NCBI GenBank assembly: GCA_913040875.1
Contig: CAJWHX010000074.1
Location: 1-10,940 of the forward strand
Reading direction: 5' to 3'
DNA: 10,940 bases
Source of the DNA: an uncultured Pseudomonadota bacterium
Lineage (GTDB): Bacteria; Myxococcota; UBA796
The notes beneath the pieces were generated by a model, which was not told where the DNA came from, did not search any database, and saw only the letters and a list, made by a program, of their open reading frames with translations. Position numbers and translations under genes: made by a program. Positions 1 through 10,940 of this stretch are shown here, piece by piece (positions within the stretch are counted from its first letter, which is position 1; the number at the start of each line of letters is the position of its first letter).

Positions 1-2854
1 CCTTGATCGTCAATTCGTACGGACCAGTACCATCTGAGCCCACAACCAAAATGTACTGCTGACCACCTGTCAACTCCAGATCGAGATACGCGCCTTCTTC
101 TTCATCAACCGATACACCACCCAGATTGAGCTTTCTATCCAAAGAAACAGCATTATCATCATCCACTTGATCTAGATCGAGCACCTCAGTACCAATCGGC
201 ACGAATCCACTCGGATCATTTCCTGCCAACGTGCACTGCATGACTTGCATCTGACCAATGAAGGTTGACGGAGTCGGTTCGTTGACATCAAGGACGCCAT
301 CTCTATCCCAATCTTCATCGCAGGTTGTGACATCTTCTTCCTGTGTTCCACACGGGTCAAACACATCTGTCGTCCCAGCTGTATCCTCGACTTCCAAGGA
401 GAACATCTCGGACTCGTCATAGGATATGGATGACAGCAACACTTGAGAAGACAAATGCTCAAGCAGCATAAATGGATAGCCGAAACTCACCCCATCAGTA
501 CAGGCACCTGTCTGTGTACCGGCTACGGTTGGTACAGGAACATAGGACCGAGGCACCATCGCCATCCAAGGATCGGAAAGCCCTACAGTTCCGCCTATAT
601 CTTCATAACGATAGTCCAACCAAGCCACCACGCGAACTGTTGCACCATTCGTAAAGCTACTCAGATCCACTAGCCAACGATCTGTATCGTAAACTGTTAG
701 GCTACTTTGTGAACCATCTGAATCTACAGTGACTGTAGCACCCTCAACAGAAATCTCCCCAATCCCATATACTGGAGTTCCGTCTGTCGGAAGCATCGGG
801 AGAATGGTATTGTTGACATCCGTGGGTGAATACAGAACGTCTCTTGCAAAATTAACAGCCGGTGCATCTCCCCCTCTAATCACAGCCACCTTATAGGCAG
901 AACTCGGAGAACGAACCTCAATTTGAGTCGCATCAAATGGAATATCTGTCATTCGAATGATTTGAGCACCATACCCTGGGGTGACATATCCATAAAAGTC
1001 TTGACCAAATACAGCTGTGGAAAAGTCACTGTGGGCTAAGCGCACACGACTGTCTTCATTTTCTACGGGGACGTCTGTACCACCAAACATATATACATTG
1101 TCTGAGCCAACATCAATCCCGAGCTGATAGCCATTTGCACCATACAAATCGCCACTTGTTGGACTCGTTGTGGGAGCCGTAATCGTACTGACAGGGGCAT
1201 ACGGAGGATAGGAAGCACCATCAACATCGAGGCCTCCATCTCCTTGGGTAGATTCAGCGCTCATGAGGGCTATCTGCCATTTCAGAACCAAATCCTCCAT
1301 CCCTTCGCCAACTACGGCTTCAATATTCTCTGTTCCAACATCCGCAGACTGAACCAATCCAGACAATACGGAATCACCATAAGCGTCGACGAGCCATCGG
1401 AAAAACAAATACTGTCCACCAAACGGTGATGTACTGATCGCTCCACTATCCTCTGTATCTGTCAGAGAACTTAAATGTGGTGCATCCAAATAATTCCACG
1501 CCATGACATGATTGGAAGCCCCAAATCCTGTTAAGTCCGCTGCCAAAGCACTCAACCCCAAAGAAACCCAAGTGTCTTCTTCGTCACTCTCATTCAAAAT
1601 GACGTGCTGGTTGTAGGAGATCAACTTATAAAATGCGCTGGCGATTTGAGCACTGAGGTTTACACTAGTGTAGTCTTCAATCGTAGTTCTAGCATAGGGG
1701 TTGTGATACCCGTATGGATCTGGAGCGAAAACGTAAATCACTTCTTGTTCATCTGAAACCGGATTTTGATCTGGATCAAAAGCCGCCAAGTCAACGGTTG
1801 GGTCCGTATAAGAACTAACGAACTGAATCTCTGAATCCTCATCCGTGTTTCGAGTCATCTGATTGAGCACCGGTGTAATGACTACAGAAACCATCCCATC
1901 CCCATTTTCATCGGACTCATCACCAAAATAAGCGCGCAGATTTGGAAAGGTGTTGTAGTCTACGATATCGGCAATCTGTTGAAGATCACAGTTGTCAAAC
2001 CCATAGGCCTCAGTAGCCGCTGGGACGTCGATCGTTCCATCGCAATTTTGGTCCCAATCCACCGCAACGGCTTCATCCACCCAAATAGACACACTGGATC
2101 CGATGGCCCATAGAACTGCACCTGTTCGCTCATAAGAGGTTTCATCATCAATCGAATCACGAACCTTAAAGTCTTGTCGGGCTATTCCAATATGGGCGGT
2201 GGTGTACGTATTTGGTGGTGCAACTGGACCGGAGGTCGGAGTGACTTGAGTTTGGGATGACTGTCCGCCAGTTAAACTGTTCTTGCCTCTACGAATATTA
2301 GAACCCGTGTTCTCAGATGCATTTTGAGATTCATTCATATGAGGGGCTACCGGCAGAGACGCAACTTCCTCCGAACCCGAAGCCTCATCCCCATCCTCAT
2401 CCGCAGCCGGATTGCCTTCTCCAGCACTCAAGTGGTACTCCAGTGCAAAACCAACTTCTTCCTCTTCTTCACTGGTATTGACAACGATGAGATAAAAATC
2501 TTGATCTGTGTTGCTATCGCCCGATGCATCGGTCAGATCAACCGTAGCAACCCCATCCGAAGACTCAACGATGACAACATCCCCTGGATCATCGAAGGTT
2601 TGTCCCTCTCCGCTAGGTTCCATGGCTCCGGTATCTTCACCAGTGTCCATACCGGTATCCGGATTTTCTGTATCATCCGTATCAGTGTCCTCTGTGTCTG
2701 TATCATCCGTATCAAAGATATCTGTATCTTCAGAGTCAGAATCCCCGTCGGTACCAGTATAAATTCCGAAACCATCCTTACCATCACCTGTACATCCAAT
2801 GGACAAAGTGAGGGCCAATACTGCTGAGGTAGACAAGAAACTTTTGAATGTCAT
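1..2854 (-). CDS. Giant lipoprotein, M30 (hyicolysin)-like pseudopeptidase, 3' end beyond window
   Basis: An uninterrupted frame runs from ATG at 2854 to the window edge (951 codons, no stop). The start follows GGAGAA by a normal distance. Residues 1-20 look like a lipoprotein signal ending S-I-G before Cys21; Ser at -3 is not canonical. Thr22 follows, so outer-membrane retention is likely. Residues about 36-76 are a D/T/E/S-rich linker. From about residue 215 the protein follows the M30 layout: GDESDENGDG (311-320), a helix at 404-416, WVSLGLSALAADLTG (429-443), FFRWLVDAYGD (484-494), then NIEAVVGEGM and WQIALM. The usual HExxH is S406-A-F-Y-K410, and the Glu expected in W-L-N-E-G is Leu432, so zinc proteolysis is unlikely. 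A D-rich calcium-type segment (CDEDWDRDG) and a PPC-like strand pattern (TGGQQYILVVG) close the visible part. Family assignment is from remembered motifs; a non-enzymatic surface role is inference. Confidence 0.85.
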   Translation of the reverse strand, partial: MTFKSFLSTSAVLALTLSIGCTGDGKDGFGIYTGTDGDSDSEDTDIFDTDDTDTEDTDTDDTENPDTGMDTGEDTGAMEPSGEGQTFDDPGDVVIVESSDGVATVDLTDASGDSNTDQDFYLIVVNTSEEEEEVGFALEYHLSAGEGNPAADEDGDEASGSEEVASLPVAPHMNESQNASENTGSNIRRGKNSLTGGQSSQTQVTPTSGPVAPPNTYTTAHIGIARQDFKVRDSIDDETSYERTGAVLWAIGSSVSIWVDEAVAVDWDQNCDGTIDVPAATEAYGFDNCDLQQIADIVDYNTFPNLRAYFGDESDENGDGMVSVVITPVLNQMTRNTDEDSEIQFVSSYTDPTVDLAAFDPDQNPVSDEQEVIYVFAPDPYGYHNPYARTTIEDYTSVNLSAQIASAFYKLISYNQHVILNESDEEDTWVSLGLSALAADLTGFGASNHVMAWNYLDAPHLSSLTDTEDSGAISTSPFGGQYLFFRWLVDAYGDSVLSGLVQSADVGTENIEAVVGEGMEDLVLKWQIALMSAESTQGDGGLDVDGASYPPYAPVSTITAPTTSPTSGDLYGANGYQLGIDVGSDNVYMFGGTDVPVENEDSRVRLAHSDFSTAVFGQDFYGYVTPGYGAQIIRMTDIPFDATQIEVRSPSSAYKVAVIRGGDAPAVNFARDVLYSPTDVNNTILPMLPTDGTPVYGIGEISVEGATVTVDSDGSQSSLTVYDTDRWLVDLSSFTNGATVRVVAWLDYRYEDIGGTVGLSDPWMAMVPRSYVPVPTVAGTQTGACTDGVSFGYPFMLLEHLSSQVLLSSISYDESEMFSLEVEDTAGTTDVFDPCGTQEEDVTTCDEDWDRDGVLDVNEPTPSTFIGQMQVMQCTLAGNDPSGFVPIGTEVLDLDQVDDDNAVSLDRKLNLGGVSVDEEEGAYLDLELTGGQQYILVVGSDGTGPYELTIK
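2641..2750 (-). repeat. Low-complexity repeats coding the acidic DTD linker
   Basis: The plus-strand 18-mer TCTGTATCATCCGTATCA occurs at 2667-2684 and again, exactly, at 2697-2714, a 30-base period. Degenerate copies of GTATC/GTGTC flank both. The repeats lie in frame in the lipoprotein and encode the Asp-Thr linker just after the lipid anchor. Such linkers usually act as flexible spacers. The DNA repeat could allow in-frame length change by slippage or recombination. Confidence 0.7.
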
Positions 2855-2860
2855 CGCATT

Positions 2861-2864
2861 CTCC
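2861..2864 (-). promoter_or_regulatory. Ribosome binding site of the lipoprotein gene
   Basis: The minus strand reads TGGAGAATGCG directly before ATG at 2854. GGAG sits six bases from the start, a standard Shine-Dalgarno distance. It supports this start for the long frame, which is confirmed by the signal-like sequence that follows. Confidence 0.6.
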
Positions 2865-2877
2865 ATACAATTTAGGG

Positions 2878-2951: not shown

Positions 2952-4088
2952 TCATGATTTCAGAAGATTACTGTAAATATCGACAAGGCTCTCGGCTTGA
3001 ATTTGATGAGTGCAAGACTCTAAAATGCCTGAACGAGCCTGTTTTCCGAGGGTCAATCGGTGGTCATCATCACTCAATAGTTCAGTAAGTTTCTGGACCA
3101 AAGATGGGACATCTCCATTCGGAAATGAAATGGCCCCCGGTAAAGCAACAAAACTACCCTCGGACACCAATGTCACACATTCAAGTGCCAAATAATTCAA
3201 CAACTTCATCGGAAAACCTGCGCACTGTATTCTTGGAATCACCGCCAAATCCGCATTTGCAATCACCCGCTGAACCTCTGTAAAGTCCGTCGTCTGAATT
3301 CTCAGTATCTGCCCCTGCTCTCTCTGCCATTGCTGAGTATCAGATGCAGACACCATCACCAGTCCAATCTCAGGAATACAATCCATCGCCTTCATCAAGA
3401 TCTCCAAGTTCTGATACGCATCTGGATTTCCTGCGTACACAACCCACTGTCCACACTCCATTCCCTTGGGTTTATGTTGCCTCAGTGTTTCGATATCCAA
3501 AAACTCATCGGGAGAAATTCCAGGTACAATGGACAACACATTTTGACATCCTAATTGCCTCAGCCTCGAAATCGATTCTGGACGCAGCACCAAGGTCTGA
3601 TCTGCCAGCCTCGGTATCGTTTTATCTAGAAACAGTCCAAATCGTGTCATCCACTTCTTCGTACGAACCCCTGTAAAATACGTTGAAAGTTCCTCCTCCA
3701 TTGTATTGTGAGCAGAATATACAATTGGAACCCCTCTCAACTGTCTTGATAGGGCTTTACCAAGTGTAGCGACGATGGGGGCCTCATAATTGTGTACGTG
3801 AATAACGTCTGGGCGAATTCGGCGTAGTTTCAATACCATCCACGCATCCAACCACGGTTTGACAGCATCGGGCCCGGCGCGCATATTGCTATATCCAAAC
3901 AAGGATGGTGTTCGATGAATGTGAATACCCAAGGATTCTTCAAACTCCGTAGCTCCAACTCCATGACCGTAACAGAGCAAGTGTACTTCGTGCCCCAGTC
4001 TGGCCAATCCAAGCAGTATACTCTTTACATAAACTTGAGAGCCTTGAGGACTGGGATAGGGAAAGGTTCCAATCTGCAACACTTTCAT
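2952..4088 (-). CDS. GT4-like glycosyltransferase (GT-B fold)
   Basis: This 378-residue soluble protein has the two-domain GT-B layout. The N-terminal acceptor domain opens with MKVLQIGTFPYPSPQGSQVY, the beta strand plus glycine-rich loop of GT4 enzymes. IRPDVIHVHN (91-100) and VPIVYSAHNT (120-129) are typical inner strands. The nucleotide-sugar domain runs from about residue 213 (QWVVYAGNPDAYQNLEILMKA) through ADLAVIPRIQCAGFPMKLLNY (279-299) to a C-terminal helix. It probably transfers a sugar to a lipid-linked or surface glycan; donor and acceptor cannot be read. The usual second Glu of the E-x7-E motif is Asn298 in KLLNY; whether that matters for activity is open. The ATG follows the preceding TAG with no gap, which points to translational coupling with the phosphodiesterase. 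Length is normal for the family. Confidence 0.85.
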   Translation of the reverse strand: MKVLQIGTFPYPSPQGSQVYVKSILLGLARLGHEVHLLCYGHGVGATEFEESLGIHIHRTPSLFGYSNMRAGPDAVKPWLDAWMVLKLRRIRPDVIHVHNYEAPIVATLGKALSRQLRGVPIVYSAHNTMEEELSTYFTGVRTKKWMTRFGLFLDKTIPRLADQTLVLRPESISRLRQLGCQNVLSIVPGISPDEFLDIETLRQHKPKGMECGQWVVYAGNPDAYQNLEILMKAMDCIPEIGLVMVSASDTQQWQREQGQILRIQTTDFTEVQRVIANADLAVIPRIQCAGFPMKLLNYLALECVTLVSEGSFVALPGAISFPNGDVPSLVQKLTELLSDDDHRLTLGKQARSGILESCTHQIQAESLVDIYSNLLKS

Positions 4089-5756
4089 CTACAAATACCC
4101 CAACTGCTCAAGTCGTTTGTGAATTGCGTCATGTTCAACCGTACTGTTTTCACGATCACCCATAGATGCTGGAGATGCTGGAGAATACTCTACACGGAAC
4201 TGACTCTTGGGAGTTCCTAGAACTTCCAGTACTCTACCCTCCATATAAGATGGTATGGGTTCTTCAAGTATGTAGAGTAACGTCGGTGCGATATCTGCCA
4301 TATCGGCTTGCAATCGTTGAGTCTGAATGCCTTTTCCTGATAGTATGACAACCCCAAACTGACGATGGCTCCCATTCATTCCGAGCCCCTTACCGCCTTG
4401 ATACTCTTCTGGTGTAAACCGTCTCCACGTCTGAGAATCTTCTGACCGAATGGACGGCAACAATGTATAGGTACACCCATCTCGAAGGTTCAACTCCAAA
4501 ACCAACTCAGGTGACTTGTGCACCATCTTTCCACTGTATACATCCTCTCGATACAATACCGATTTTACAGGGTTGTGCCCATCGACAGTCCAGGAGAGTA
4601 AATCCTGCCTCAATTTATCGATAGTATTGTCCAAATCGTGCACGCCAATGTTGCCCATATTCAATCGAATGGTCGCAGCATAATTCATCTCATCGGACAA
4701 CGCGATGGTTCTCTCAAAGTCGACAGTTCCAAAACGACTGGAGGTTTCAAGTTTGGATTTCAGTCCGGCTGGCAGTGCCCTAAACAATCCACCTTGCAAC
4801 CTAGACGGAATCTGACTGAGTCCCACTCTACGTGACCAGTCCATCACCTTTCCCATACGGGTGTCTTTACCCTCTTTCAATGTCAACCAACCCTTCGAAA
4901 TTAAAAACTGATTGAGGTAAAGCGCATAGTCACCGGCCCCACCAAAGCCATGATCACTGCAGATACACACCACATCCGCAGCTGCAGACTCAATTAAGGT
5001 CCCTACAGCCTCATCCAGTCGCTCATAGACATCTCGTATGGTGTTTCGAATATCCGCATCCACGGCATCATCATAGCGCGGGGAGGACGAATCAAAGAAC
5101 CGCCAAAAATGGTGACTCGCTGTATCAGACTCACCGAACAGCAACATGAAACAATCCCAATCGTCAGACTCAAGAAGCCATTGCCCTATGGCCTCTTTGC
5201 GTTCCACTTCTTTCAACAGCAACTGTCTTGCATCATGAAGCCATTCATCATCAATGGAGGTCTCTTGAAAATCGGCAAAATTCAGACCGCCAAACCGAGA
5301 TTGGAGCTCCGCATAAAGTTCTGGTGGGTGGCAAAAGGAACCGTCAATGCCTGTGGATACAGGACTGTCAAATCCAGACACCATAACTCCATTCACCGAT
5401 GATGGTGGCCATGTTGTGGGAACCGCAATCGAAGCCACTCTCTTACCACACAAACTGAGCCATTCATGTATGGTCGGTACAGCACGATGAGTCGAATTTG
5501 TGAATTCCAATCGCCAGTCTTTGTCTGTCGAATCCCGATGAACAAAGTCAAAGATGCCATGCGTGCCAGGGTAACACCCCGTCAGCATACTTGACCATGA
5601 TGGGAGAGTCATCGGTGGAGTAGTAGAATTAAGTGGACCAGAGGCGCCAGTATCGATCAGACGAGTGAGATTTGGTAGCAACCCTTCGCTCTGCAAGCGA
5701 CGAATCACGCTCCATTCCGCCCCATCCAAACCAATGATTAGTGCTCTTGCGCCCAT
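4089..5756 (-). CDS. Alkaline-phosphatase-superfamily phosphodiesterase (type I PDE/NPP-like), apparently active
   Basis: The 555-residue protein opens with ALIIGLDGAEWSVI, whose Asp11 is a metal ligand. The nucleophile loop is TPPMTLPSWSSMLTG with Thr50 as probable nucleophile, followed by H66 in PGTHGIFDF. Further ligands are D211 and H215 in GESDTASHHFW, D268/H269 in CSDHGFGG and H464 in GSHRQFG. ADMADIAPTLLYIL and the following M-E-G-R match the usual C-terminal end. All expected two-metal residues therefore appear present. The family hydrolyses phosphodiester or phosphate bonds; the substrate is unknown. There is no signal peptide or membrane segment, so it is predicted cytoplasmic. Its ATG lies 11 bases after the sulfatase-like gene, and its stop abuts the glycosyltransferase ATG. 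Similar genes often occur in glycan clusters, so a phosphoglycan or lipid-linked sugar is possible. Confidence 0.85.
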   Translation of the reverse strand: MGARALIIGLDGAEWSVIRRLQSEGLLPNLTRLIDTGASGPLNSTTPPMTLPSWSSMLTGCYPGTHGIFDFVHRDSTDKDWRLEFTNSTHRAVPTIHEWLSLCGKRVASIAVPTTWPPSSVNGVMVSGFDSPVSTGIDGSFCHPPELYAELQSRFGGLNFADFQETSIDDEWLHDARQLLLKEVERKEAIGQWLLESDDWDCFMLLFGESDTASHHFWRFFDSSSPRYDDAVDADIRNTIRDVYERLDEAVGTLIESAAADVVCICSDHGFGGAGDYALYLNQFLISKGWLTLKEGKDTRMGKVMDWSRRVGLSQIPSRLQGGLFRALPAGLKSKLETSSRFGTVDFERTIALSDEMNYAATIRLNMGNIGVHDLDNTIDKLRQDLLSWTVDGHNPVKSVLYREDVYSGKMVHKSPELVLELNLRDGCTYTLLPSIRSEDSQTWRRFTPEEYQGGKGLGMNGSHRQFGVVILSGKGIQTQRLQADMADIAPTLLYILEEPIPSYMEGRVLEVLGTPKSQFRVEYSPASPASMGDRENSTVEHDAIHKRLEQLGYL

Positions 5757-7294: not shown

Positions 7295-9835
7295 TCAATC
7301 CATCTTTCGCGTCACAACCCTTAAATAAGTCAGACCGAGTAAGAACATCACAATCCCAAACAAAATCCAATTGAGTTCAATCAACGTAAGACCAATGTCA
7401 TCCGCCTCATCACTCATTTTGAGCCCAAGCTTCCAAAGTGTTCCGTTAATCAACTGGGGCTCGAAATCCCCACGCCTTGATCGGACCGCTATTTTCTCAC
7501 CACATTTTAAAAATGCATCGAAGGTATAGCGCTGAATGATCACCCACGTCACCGCTTTGGAGACCAACCCCATATCTCGAATGGCAAATACGAGGGAGGA
7601 AAATGCAATGTTGGGGATCAAGATTATCGGCAAAAAACCTACAGCCGCTTCGGAAGATTTCCACAGAGAAGAAACAAACAACCCCAGAGCCATACCGACC
7701 AATCCTGTTAAGGTAGAGACCATTAGCAAGTCTGATAGGATGAAATTATAGCTTTCAGCATCCCCCATGTTCATGAGCCAATACATCGAACCCGTTAAAA
7801 ATATCGTTTGCAAAGAAACGATGGCTCCCAAAACAACGACTTTACTCAACACATATGGCAATACGCCAACACCAACACGCCGTTCACGTCTGAAGATGAC
7901 TTGATCGGAAATCAGTTCGCGAACAGCAGCCGACATTCCAAACCACAAACAGGATAATGCCAACATAAACAGCATTGACTCAGTCGGAACAGAAACACCT
8001 TCTTCTTGAAATACAATCCATATCACCGCAGCCAAAAACGGTGGCTGCAAGGCTAGCACAGCCATTCCAGTCCTATCCCTGAGTTTCACTTTGAAATAAC
8101 GTTCTATCAACGTTGTGAACTGACGTTTAAAAGCTCTAAACCGACCCACATTTCTAGGCGGTATTGGTGGCTCTGTTTCACTCACCTCACAATTGTCAAT
8201 CGCCAGTTGTCGAATGTTGTAATCTGTACGTTCCTTAAATTGACTGGCCCATTTGGATTGGTCATCCCCAAACTGCTGAAAGATTTTATCGGTCGTTGGA
8301 ACTTGAAAGAACTCTAAGGCATCGTTCTTCTTACCAAAGAACGCGATCTTCCCTCCCTTCACCATGGCAAGGAGATTGTCCACTTGATTGATGATTCCAT
8401 CGGTCAAATCGTGCGTAACCAAAAATACAATCCGTCCACGATCTGCCAGTCCACGAACCAATTTCACAATTTCTTGTGAGGCTCGAGGATCCAATCCACT
8501 GGTGGGTTCATCCAGAAATAAGATCTTGGTATTTTGCGAGAGCAGTTCTTGCCCCAAGTTGACGCGTTTTCGTTGCCCTCCAGAGATTCCTCTTTTGAGC
8601 GCATCTCCAATACGAGAGCTTCGAATGTGTAGGATATCAAGTTCTTGCAAAACGCGTTCAACCTGCTTCTGAATCTCTTCCTCTGTACTGTCGGCAGAAA
8701 GTCTGAGACGACCTGAATAATACAGGGCCTCTTCTACGGTCAATTCTGGCAACACCAAATCATCTTGAGGAACAATCCCAATCAGTGAACGATCTTCTTG
8801 AAGCAGCTTGTGAAAGCTCTGTCCATTCAGCATCACGCGACCAGAATCAGCCGGAGCCACACCATTGATGGCGTTGAGCAAGGTGGTCTTCCCACATCCT
8901 GATGGACCAATGAGGGCGATGAGCTCTCCACCAAAGATACTGAAGTTCACATCTTCGAGTAGAGTCACACTACCGATCTGTCGCTGAATATCTTGAACGC
9001 TCAGCGTCAGCATCGTAGAAGGTTCCGACAATGCCAACGAATCCCGTTCGACTGTCAATTCGACAGAACCAATCTGAAACTTGTCGTCTTGAGAGAGGAC
9101 CATTCTTTGAATTGGCACATCTTTGTACCACACTGGTCGTTTGGACTGTTCAGCAAGCAACACCAACTTACCACCTTCCTTTTGGATGTAGGCATGTAAG
9201 GGCTCCACCCTTGGATCAAACAACACCAAGTCACAGGCACCACCCGAACCAATAAGGATGAGTTCGTCATCGTGTGTGCTGAGCCGACCATTTCCGGCAC
9301 TGGAAAAGAAGCCGTACTTATAAAAGAAGGATGATGCCAACCACTTGTCGATCCCAATTAGTTGACACACTTCATAAATCCGAAGCAGCTGCATATGTCG
9401 TCGACTTGGCTCGGATTCATCTCGGACCAAAGAGAGCAGGACTTCGATGAGGGATAAACTCAATTCTTGGCCATGACTTCCCATGAAATCTGAGAGACTT
9501 TCAACAGACCAATTCTCAGCATATTTACTGCGGATCTCTTCAACTTTGCTTTCAGACTCCAATGCCAACATGTTCAACTGAGTACGGTTGAAAATGGCAC
9601 CTTCAAACGCGACTCGCTCCTCAAAAGAAAGAACATTTCTAAACTTTGGATGCAGCTCTCTTTGAACCACGTCTTGAACACGCTCTAGTGTCAGATCGAC
9701 CGTATCGTGAAGAAAGGAGACCAACGTTTGCTGCTGACGACTGGTCAACTGACGCGTTTGTAACACAAAAAGAGCCGTATCCGTAATCCGGGATGCCAGC
9801 TCTTCGTGGGTTTCTTTCTGTCCTGCCATTTGCAC
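7295..9835 (-). CDS. ABC transporter ATPase-permease fusion (ABCG-like order) with TerB-like and FHA-like N-terminus
   Basis: The 846-residue protein has four regions. Residues about 85-175 are helical and resemble TerB-like domains (SLIEVLLSLVRDE, then LLRIYEVCQLIGID); this is tentative. Residues about 190-265 look FHA-like (LILIGSGGACDLVLFDPRVE, His214) but lack the usual Arg after Gly196, the Ser of S-x-x-H and an N-G motif. The ABC ATPase follows: Walker A GPSGCGKTT (310-318), Q357, signature ISGGQRKRVN (417-426), Walker B ILFLDE (438-443), SGLD (446-449) and H475, all intact. About six helices (592-612, 620-637, 664-685, 702-725, 733-752, 822-840) form an ABC2-type permease. The order ATPase then permease is that of ABCG exporters, so it probably works as a dimer in the inner membrane; cargo is unknown. 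The start is probably GTG 9835, nine bases after AAGGA; ATG 9829 would be 15 bases away. Confidence 0.88.
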   Translation of the reverse strand: MQMAGQKETHEELASRITDTALFVLQTRQLTSRQQQTLVSFLHDTVDLTLERVQDVVQRELHPKFRNVLSFEERVAFEGAIFNRTQLNMLALESESKVEEIRSKYAENWSVESLSDFMGSHGQELSLSLIEVLLSLVRDESEPSRRHMQLLRIYEVCQLIGIDKWLASSFFYKYGFFSSAGNGRLSTHDDELILIGSGGACDLVLFDPRVEPLHAYIQKEGGKLVLLAEQSKRPVWYKDVPIQRMVLSQDDKFQIGSVELTVERDSLALSEPSTMLTLSVQDIQRQIGSVTLLEDVNFSIFGGELIALIGPSGCGKTTLLNAINGVAPADSGRVMLNGQSFHKLLQEDRSLIGIVPQDDLVLPELTVEEALYYSGRLRLSADSTEEEIQKQVERVLQELDILHIRSSRIGDALKRGISGGQRKRVNLGQELLSQNTKILFLDEPTSGLDPRASQEIVKLVRGLADRGRIVFLVTHDLTDGIINQVDNLLAMVKGGKIAFFGKKNDALEFFQVPTTDKIFQQFGDDQSKWASQFKERTDYNIRQLAIDNCEVSETEPPIPPRNVGRFRAFKRQFTTLIERYFKVKLRDRTGMAVLALQPPFLAAVIWIVFQEEGVSVPTESMLFMLALSCLWFGMSAAVRELISDQVIFRRERRVGVGVLPYVLSKVVVLGAIVSLQTIFLTGSMYWLMNMGDAESYNFILSDLLMVSTLTGLVGMALGLFVSSLWKSSEAAVGFLPIILIPNIAFSSLVFAIRDMGLVSKAVTWVIIQRYTFDAFLKCGEKIAVRSRRGDFEPQLINGTLWKLGLKMSDEADDIGLTLIELNWILFGIVMFLLGLTYLRVVTRKMD

Positions 9836-9844
9836 GGATATACG

Positions 9845-9850
9845 TCCTTA
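9845..9850 (-). promoter_or_regulatory. Ribosome binding site overlapping the upstream stop codon; decides a GTG start
   Basis: TAAGGA on the minus strand contains the TAA of the small exported protein gene. AAGGA lies nine bases before GTG 9835 and 15 before the in-frame ATG at 9829. The spacing favours GTG, although either start gives the same protein from residue 3 onward. The overlap with the stop suggests translational coupling. Confidence 0.5.
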
Positions 9851-10279
9851 TCGATAGGTTACAGCCAATGCAACACCTGCATCCTCTGCATCTCCATCCA
9901 AATCAGCGGCTTGAACAGCAACATAGTATGTCTGCGTTTCTTCTGGCTTATACAACACAGTAGGTTCACGTGAAGAGGATTCATCTCGCAACAATTCCTT
10001 TCCATCTAAGTCATGTAAAATCAGATCAACATTCTTCGCACCTTTGTCAGCACAGACTTGAAGTTTATACTCGTTGCCAGCATACAAAGTGAGCAGGTAG
10101 ACCCGATGCTCATCTTGCTTTAGTGTCGTAGTCGTGGCAGTACGAACCGCCCAACCATCACTGTACCCAGACCAAATTTTGTCGGTTAAGCAGCTCTCGG
10201 CGGCCTCTTCAGTGGCGTATGCCGTGGCGGTAAAAAGCACACCGGCCGTGGCAAATAATGTGGAAAATGACAAGCGCAT
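9848..10279 (-). CDS. Small exported beta-rich protein, PPC-like
   Basis: Residues 1-22 form a clear Sec signal peptide: a short basic start, a hydrophobic core (LFATAGVLFTATA) and A-Y-A as probable cleavage site before Thr23. The mature part is about 121 residues with two cysteines (C30 and C76) that could pair in the periplasm. The strand pattern HRVYLLTLYAGNEYKLQV, NVDLILHDLDGKEL and TYYVAVQAADLDG resembles bacterial pre-peptidase C-terminal (PPC) beta-sandwich domains; this is a pattern match, not a family identification. It ends in a strand. It is sandwiched between the helical protein and the ABC fusion, eight and 12 bases from each, so it may be a periplasmic partner of that transporter. 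A PPC-like segment is also seen at the far end of the large lipoprotein in this window. Confidence 0.75.
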   Translation of the reverse strand: MRLSFSTLFATAGVLFTATAYATEEAAESCLTDKIWSGYSDGWAVRTATTTTLKQDEHRVYLLTLYAGNEYKLQVCADKGAKNVDLILHDLDGKELLRDESSSREPTVLYKPEETQTYYVAVQAADLDGDAEDAGVALAVTYR

Positions 10280-10283
10280 ATGG

Positions 10284-10289
10284 CCTCCT
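10284..10289 (-). promoter_or_regulatory. Strong ribosome binding site of the small exported protein gene
   Basis: AGGAGG on the minus strand overlaps the TAG stop of the preceding gene and lies four bases before ATG at 10279. It is the best Shine-Dalgarno in the window and implies efficient, coupled translation of this small exported protein. Confidence 0.65.
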
Positions 10290-10940
10290 ACAACATTGAG
10301 AGTACTTCAGACGTAGAACGATTGATTTCTTTTACATCTTCGGCACTCATCGCGGGTTTTTCAGCGATTTTTTTCAGATTGTTCAACACCTCAGTCAACT
10401 TAGCGACAACTTGATCTGGGGCCTTAGACTTTCCTTCACGTTCTACGTATTTCAGGAAATATTCAACCACTCTAGGTTGCTTCAGCAGCTGCCCAGCGAC
10501 ATCAAACTTATTTTCTTTTACAATAGCAGCAGACACTAAATTGGCACCCTCGAGCCATGAACCAGCCTGAATGAGTGGGACAACCCATTCTCCTGCTTCG
10601 TACTCCAATTCTGAAACCATAACTCCAGACAATTCATCCATCTCTTTAAGCAAATCATCTTCATTGATGGCGTCATTCGTAATCTGTGTACCCAAATCTT
10701 TGATGGTAGCCTGGATATCATCTCCAGCACCCAACGCCTTAAATCCAACCTTTAATTTTTCTAGGCGATCCAATTTAGACTCTTTCGAAGCCGTCTTGAC
10801 CGTAAGCACCAAATCCGCCAAAACAACGCCAGTGCGCACTGCCATGTTGTCTTTGTCTTCAACATCCATTCCAATCTTGCGATCTGCAGAGACCAAACTA
10901 GCCAAATCACTGGTCAATCCAGCATTGCTGAGTGATTTTT
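10288..10940 (-). CDS. Unrecognised helical protein, 5' end beyond window
   Basis: The frame is open to the window edge, giving 216 visible residues, so the true start is upstream. TTG at 10917 is not needed as a start, because coding sequence continues without a stop before it (KSLSNAG). The visible part is almost entirely amphipathic helix, with no cysteine and two tryptophans (GEWVVPLIQAGSWLEGAN). It has a charged segment ASKESKLDRLEKLKVGF and a C-terminal helix from SAEDVKEINRSTSEV. I do not recognise the family. The absence of cysteine would fit an exported protein, but the N-terminus that would show a signal is missing. It is followed after eight bases by the exported PPC-like protein and then the ABC fusion, so these three probably work together. 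Confidence 0.75.
   Translation of the reverse strand, partial: KSLSNAGLTSDLASLVSADRKIGMDVEDKDNMAVRTGVVLADLVLTVKTASKESKLDRLEKLKVGFKALGAGDDIQATIKDLGTQITNDAINEDDLLKEMDELSGVMVSELEYEAGEWVVPLIQAGSWLEGANLVSAAIVKENKFDVAGQLLKQPRVVEYFLKYVEREGKSKAPDQVVAKLTEVLNNLKKIAEKPAMSAEDVKEINRSTSEVLSML

Follow-up and report, generated by a model that had tools for sequence, protein, structure and literature searches.

What has become of a peptidase-like domain whose zinc-binding residues are gone? The question is raised by the window, the whole 10,940-nucleotide stretch of DNA analysed here, which carries at one end the gene of a lipoprotein-like protein (P0001) that resembles M30-type zinc peptidases and has other residues at the positions of the zinc site. 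Such a protein might be a decaying enzyme, an enzyme with a new active site, a chance resemblance, or a member of a family that kept the fold and gave up its chemistry. Our analysis argues for the last of these. P0001 is probably a pseudopeptidase, that is, an M30-like domain that has lost the zinc ligands, the general base and a candidate active-site Tyr, and that is kept as a lipid-anchored protein of the cell envelope.

The features of P0001 are as follows.

2..2866, minus strand: reading frame of P0001, the putative pseudopeptidase lipoprotein, unbroken over 955 residues if counted from the ATG at 2866, with an alternative ATG at 2854
2792..2806, minus strand: lipobox LSIGC with the predicted lipidated Cys25 (sequence pattern)
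2582..2791, minus strand: linker rich in Asp, Thr and Glu behind the lipid anchor, residues about 26-95 (sequence)
1244..2206, minus strand: M30-like domain derived from a zinc peptidase, residues 221-541 (profile match to 7bb8/7bb9 and hhalign)
1895..1924, minus strand: acidic loop GDESDENGDG, aligned with FGEPSDVDNNGK of 7bb8 and common to the peptidase relatives
1607..1645, minus strand: IASAFYKLISYNQ, the helix that bears HExxH in relatives, with Ser410, Ala411 and Lys414 replacing His, Glu and His
1526..1570, minus strand: WVSLGLSALAADLTG, the stretch that bears Glu in relatives, with Leu436 in its place
1421..1423, minus strand: Phe482, opposite Tyr315 of lugdulysin (profile alignment; Tyr315 placed via the E242 numbering in the entry title)
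1373-1405, minus strand: FFRWLVDAYGD, in the same frame as the replaced motifs
1262-1279, minus strand: WQIALM, in the same frame as the replaced motifs
2..1243, minus strand: C-terminal region, residues 542-955 (about 400), conserved in the family, with conserved Cys 789, 839, 849 and 878

The frame is still open at the window edge, and the C-terminal end of P0001 lies beyond it. Residues are numbered from the ATG at 2866 (MENAMTFK); the original prediction counted from the ATG at 2854 (MTFK), a difference of +4. The N-terminus has a signal-peptide-like start followed by LALTLSIGC at residues 17-25, and by this pattern of signal peptide and lipobox Cys the protein is a predicted bacterial lipoprotein, as had been proposed. 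In the family alignment of 161 rows (121 proteins and 40 genome loci, the window included), column 25 is Cys in 149 rows, and a lipobox-like pattern occurs within the first 45 residues of 97 of the 121 proteins. The protein may reside at the outer membrane. The acidic loop may bind calcium. No named domain was found in the C-terminal region.

HExxH is absent from the motif position of P0001, where SAFYK stands instead, and all five former catalytic positions are altered (Ser410, Ala411, Lys414, Leu436 and Phe482). The Glu of the WLNE or W-x-x-E (or T-E-G) stretch is taken here, in line with the alignment, to be the third zinc ligand. The Tyr position was located with the help of the 7bb9 entry title, which gives Tyr315 as mutated together with E242. 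The original prediction that both zinc motifs are replaced thus agrees with our reading, in which all four zinc-site positions are changed. The peptides it quoted were all found on the minus strand in one frame, with the motif helix and the second stretch in their assigned places; its interval, 1553-1645, covers the first motif completely but the second only in part, as that stretch starts at 1526.

Profile comparisons indicate that the homology of this domain to zinc peptidases is real. A single-sequence search of P0001 against solved structures gave no match, and a profile was needed. Profiles of 75 members (alignment A1) and of 25 domain sequences matched lugdulysin (7bb8/7bb9) at E 4e-7 and E 2e-7, respectively. 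In both alignments the zinc motifs line up: the lugdulysin segment AHEYQH is placed on the family helix IARSxxKL, and its WLNEALS on WLSEGLG, which reproduces the motif alignment originally proposed. Lugdulysin, which we take to be a member of MEROPS peptidase family M30 (hyicolysin), matched over about 240 positions, and no other solved protein came below E 0.5 in these searches. A second link runs through relatives with an intact motif. In hhalign, 25 degenerate sequences aligned with 16 intact ones at probability 100 and E 1.4e-43 over 279 columns, placing the family helix on AHEFNHLI and the second stretch on ITEGTSALAQDLTG, and the intact group itself matches lugdulysin at E 2e-20. Together, the two comparisons bear out the proposed relationship to M30-type peptidases. 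P0001 has in common with lugdulysin the domain over about 240 positions, the acidic loop, the zinc helix, the W-x-x-E register and the YLF segment. It differs at the catalytic positions, with Ser, Ala, Lys, Leu and Phe in place of His, Glu, His, Glu and Tyr, and it has in addition a lipobox and about 400 further C-terminal residues.

The Pfam check suggested with the original prediction turned out differently. PF10460 matched neither P0001 at E 10 nor any of the 25 domain sequences, which, taken literally, is one of the refuting outcomes named with the original prediction, but the five HExxH relatives that were tested were without a match as well. Likewise, a genome search with PF10460 gave 0 of 31 genomes but also 0 of 14 controls, and so says nothing on absence. 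Full-length P0001 matches nothing in Pfam and comes near no NCBIfam cut-off, so that the family escapes the usual annotation. Peptidase_MA_2 matched 2 of the 25 domain sequences weakly (best E 0.035). Several other matches were taken as noise, namely two transketolase chains (E 0.98, at profile positions 28-70, away from the zinc helix), Transketolase_N in 2 of the 25 members (best E 0.01), other Pfam matches of single members among the 25 domain sequences (best E 0.015), and an NCBIfam repeat model at E 0.89 to full-length P0001.

Active-site loss is the rule in a large family and not a peculiarity of the window protein. At least 120 homologues were found among the matches listed, of 166. Of the 161 aligned rows, 0 have the first His, 6 the Glu, 11 the second His, 58 the third Glu and 17 the Tyr, and 81 have none of the five catalytic residues. 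Arg is the commonest residue at the first His position (108/161) and Ser at the Glu position (91/161). Five rows retain both the Glu and the second His (L008, P0097, P0101, P0105 and P0121), six further members have just the second His and one has just the Glu, and the combination of Glu, second His and third Glu occurs in 0 of the 161 rows. The HExxH string is present in one of the 161 translated frames, at residue 153 of L028, an over-long frame in which the domain starts at residue 952. Because the loss is common to the aligned family, the replaced motifs amount to more than chance. The frame is open across the match in all 40 family loci. One protein, P0144, has 532 residues and shares 95% identity with the window domain over the 26% covered; immediately ahead of this stretch, near the second motif (window about 1450-1600), its opening residues are unrelated, possibly owing to a frameshift in that assembly.

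The phylogenetic tree agrees with a loss common to a clade, which the original prediction had put forward as a check. It was built from 82 of the 161 rows (representatives under 72% identity with 250 residues or more, together with rows of the AExxH clade that were forced in), three further strong matches (L088-L090) and 24 HExxH sequences; L097, L098, L100, L101 and L103, for which no frame was chosen, were left out. The 85 degenerate and 24 HExxH sequences are fully separated, with a split support of 1.0; that all 24 are intact is by construction, because they were picked for carrying HExxH. The degenerate node is labelled 0.638 after re-rooting and 1.0 on the same branch as built, and we read the former value as a label moved by re-rooting. 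Members with AExxH, AQxxH or SQxxH (L008, P0093, P0097, P0101, P0105 and P0113) form one nested clade with support 0.999, and the deepest degenerate branches (L089; L038-L040, L088 and L090) keep none of the three motif residues. This arrangement disfavours the AExxH members as survivors on the way to loss. Outside the nested clade, the second His alone occurs in P0032, P0046, P0070 and P0115, and the Glu alone in P0073. The simplest reading of the tree would be a single loss of the zinc site in the family ancestor, and the topology is also compatible with several losses.

The domain around the former active site is strongly constrained. A single residue occupies at least 150 of the 161 rows at 60 domain columns. 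In the motif helix itself, Leu415 is found in 160 and Tyr418 in 158 of the 161 rows, and Trp433, Gly447, Asp319, Glu375 and Asp383 in all 161. The conserved shell comprises the acidic loop, NPxSDEQE...APDPxG, the helix end SYN, Trp433, and the GFG and QYLF segments. Ranked by variability among the 321 domain columns, the first His position exceeds 60% of them, the Glu 57%, the second His 98%, the third Glu 86% and the Tyr 93%. By these ranks drift is free at three of the columns (second His, third Glu and Tyr), and the first His and Glu columns lie in the middle of the range; the commonness of Arg and Ser at those two perhaps reflects a new role there. Across the domain, dN/dS is 0.06-0.41 among the pairs listed, the 25 closest locus pairs (Nei-Gojobori counts, own script), which supports the purifying selection that the original prediction had asked about. 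A catalytic loss that is shared, in a domain kept under purifying selection, is what characterizes a pseudoenzyme.

As far as seen, the family is found in Myxococcota, usually with one copy per genome. Whole-genome searches covered 31 genomes taken from the 40 family loci, and each of them, chosen because it holds a family locus, has exactly one strong copy. All 31 belong to the phylum of G005, the genome of locus L005, whose record reads Myxococcota. The order of G005 was represented by 63 genomes, of which 37 have one strong copy (28 of the 37 being among the 31); of 282 genomes sampled from its phylum, 36 have one (26 of the 36 among the 31). The phylum sample thus places 26 of the 31, and the order search the other 5. 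By record label, 19 of the 40 loci are Myxococcota, Myxococcales or Deltaproteobacteria, 16 are given as proteobacteria or Pseudomonadota only, one as Oligoflexia, and four carry improbable species names. These four (L018, L022, L027 and L028) are labelled Klebsiella pneumoniae or Bifidobacterium breve and are probably mislabelled assemblies.

Intact paralogues accompany the degenerate copy in some genomes. Both kinds occur in 8 of the 31, and the 10 weaker matches from those 8 genomes (L071-L080) all have AHExxH and T-E-G; no such paralogue was found in the other 23 at E 0.01, with a distant profile and draft assemblies. Weak matches from 13 other genomes of the phylum, drawn from 23 genomes with weak matches only, carry HExxH in 12 cases; in the remaining one the match starts within the motif region. 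A second weak match of G025 (E 0.0096, one stop) was left out of the motif reading. The strong matches L088-L090 are without HExxH. Among 13 of the 24 proteins from one protein search, for which the motif status was read, six have HExxH and seven do not. P0135 and P0137-P0141 carry HEVQHAISYNQHVL or HEFQHMISYNQHVL, followed by WLNEAMSH or WLNEGLSH/Y; P0135 carries HEVQHAISYNQHVLVNGGSTE, and P0140 is named from Gemmatimonadales. These six proteins and L071-L080 are the closest intact relatives found. They keep HExxH and the third Glu, whereas the window protein has neither, and after the motif the frames of L071-L080 run for about 250 residues, that of the window protein for about 545.

Several other explanations were weighed against these results. 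A merely accidental likeness of short motifs to M30, on some other fold, might be suspected from the missing Pfam family of P0001 and from the failure of PF10460 on all 25 domain sequences, but this is extremely unlikely given lugdulysin as the sole solved protein below E 0.5, the hhalign result with the intact relatives and the weak Peptidase_MA_2 matches. Ordinary decay, with a peptidase gene turning into a pseudogene, is just as improbable in our view. The odd start of P0144 could be read that way, but the window frame is open for 955 residues, every family locus is open across the match, the first His is missing from every aligned row, and dN/dS is low. Because homology, shared loss, a complete tree split, the paralogues and low dN/dS coincide, a pseudopeptidase family is favoured over decay.

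It is also unlikely, though less so, that P0001 is still an enzyme whose new metal site or metal-free catalytic site is built from Asp or Glu and His464 in the old cleft. A large number of carboxylates vary little or not at all (D264, D270, D272, D294, D319, D359, E375 and D383) and might support a different chemistry, the columns of His421 and His464 have His in 113 and 116 of the 161 rows, and the frequent Arg and Ser at the first two old catalytic columns would also suit a new site. Against this, the columns with 90% conservation across the 75 sequences of alignment A1 include no His. Moreover, the HExxH relatives also conserve the acidic-loop Asp, the Asn335 column, Glu375 and Asp383-Pro384, and these residues therefore look like a structural shell. 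A special case of the pseudopeptidase reading makes the protein a regulatory partner or decoy of an intact M30-like paralogue, binding its substrates or the enzyme itself. The 8 genomes that encode both kinds would allow this, and the regulation of active cousins is a role given for pseudopeptidases in a review (PMC11266112), but the 23 genomes without such a paralogue at E 0.01 (draft assemblies, distant profile) speak against it, and we consider it unlikely.

We prefer the pseudopeptidase reading in its general form. The zinc ligands, general base and candidate active-site Tyr would have been lost, most simply once, in the ancestor of the Myxococcota family, and the domain would then have been retained as a lipid-anchored envelope protein, usually single-copy. 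The old substrate cleft or its rim may hold a protein, peptide or glycan ligand; alternatively, the domain may serve envelope partners as a scaffold. The fold would be kept by calcium in the acidic loop. P0001 would accordingly bind a ligand or partner rather than cut it.

This family-level pseudopeptidase falls within an already known kind. In PMC11266112, pseudopeptidases include M12 ADAM, M14 and other metallopeptidase families, which resemble the present family in having lost catalytic residues, kept the fold and taken binding or scaffold roles; the passages concerned deal mostly with animal proteins, whereas the window family is bacterial. The term M30 has no occurrence in that review, and among the titles and abstract openings listed, with most subscription papers outside this scope, no M30 pseudopeptidase family was found in the literature. 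One odd protein has in this way become a family-level case, with the active site lost, the domain still constrained across many genomes and intact paralogues in some of them. The role of the domain without zinc is now directly testable.

The gene neighbourhoods of the family are only partly shared among the 40 loci. The two nearest upstream neighbours of P0001 both recur.

2952..4088, minus strand: glycosyltransferase, the directly upstream neighbour, with a relative in the same position next to the family gene in 7 of 40 loci
4089..5756, minus strand: type I phosphodiesterase, a relative of which precedes the glycosyltransferase in 2 of 40 loci

Further upstream on the same strand lies a sulfatase-like protein (with a sulfatase match below the cut-off), which has relatives in 4 of 40 loci, not always next to the family gene. 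For the three window genes that follow, the 40 loci contain no relative; several of their contigs end near the family gene. Downstream of the family gene, outside the window, an M50-type peptidase follows at a distance of one or two frames in 9 of 40 loci (L002, L007, L012, L014, L019, L020, L023, L036 and L037; Pfam names M50 for the two tested), and a cluster of proteins of about 340 residues, without a Pfam name, occurs in 21. Because many long frames in the contigs look like antisense readings, the neighbourhood clustering is noisy, and the clusters used were those backed by Pfam or tblastn plus the one unnamed protein (21 loci). These surroundings hint at the cell envelope. It is possible, though short of probable, that in a large Myxococcota lineage the dead peptidase has become a conserved single-copy envelope receptor or scaffold whose vestigial cleft binds a glycan or peptide of the envelope or of prey, with glycosyltransferase and phosphodiesterase genes adjoining in some members. 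If true, it would be M30's first described clade-wide pseudopeptidase family. Elsewhere in the window, the frames at 9848-10279, with a signal-peptide-like start, and 10288-10917 gave no Pfam match at E 0.01, and 7295-9835, on the same strand as P0001, encodes an ABC transporter that has both an FHA domain and an ABC-2 membrane part in a single protein.
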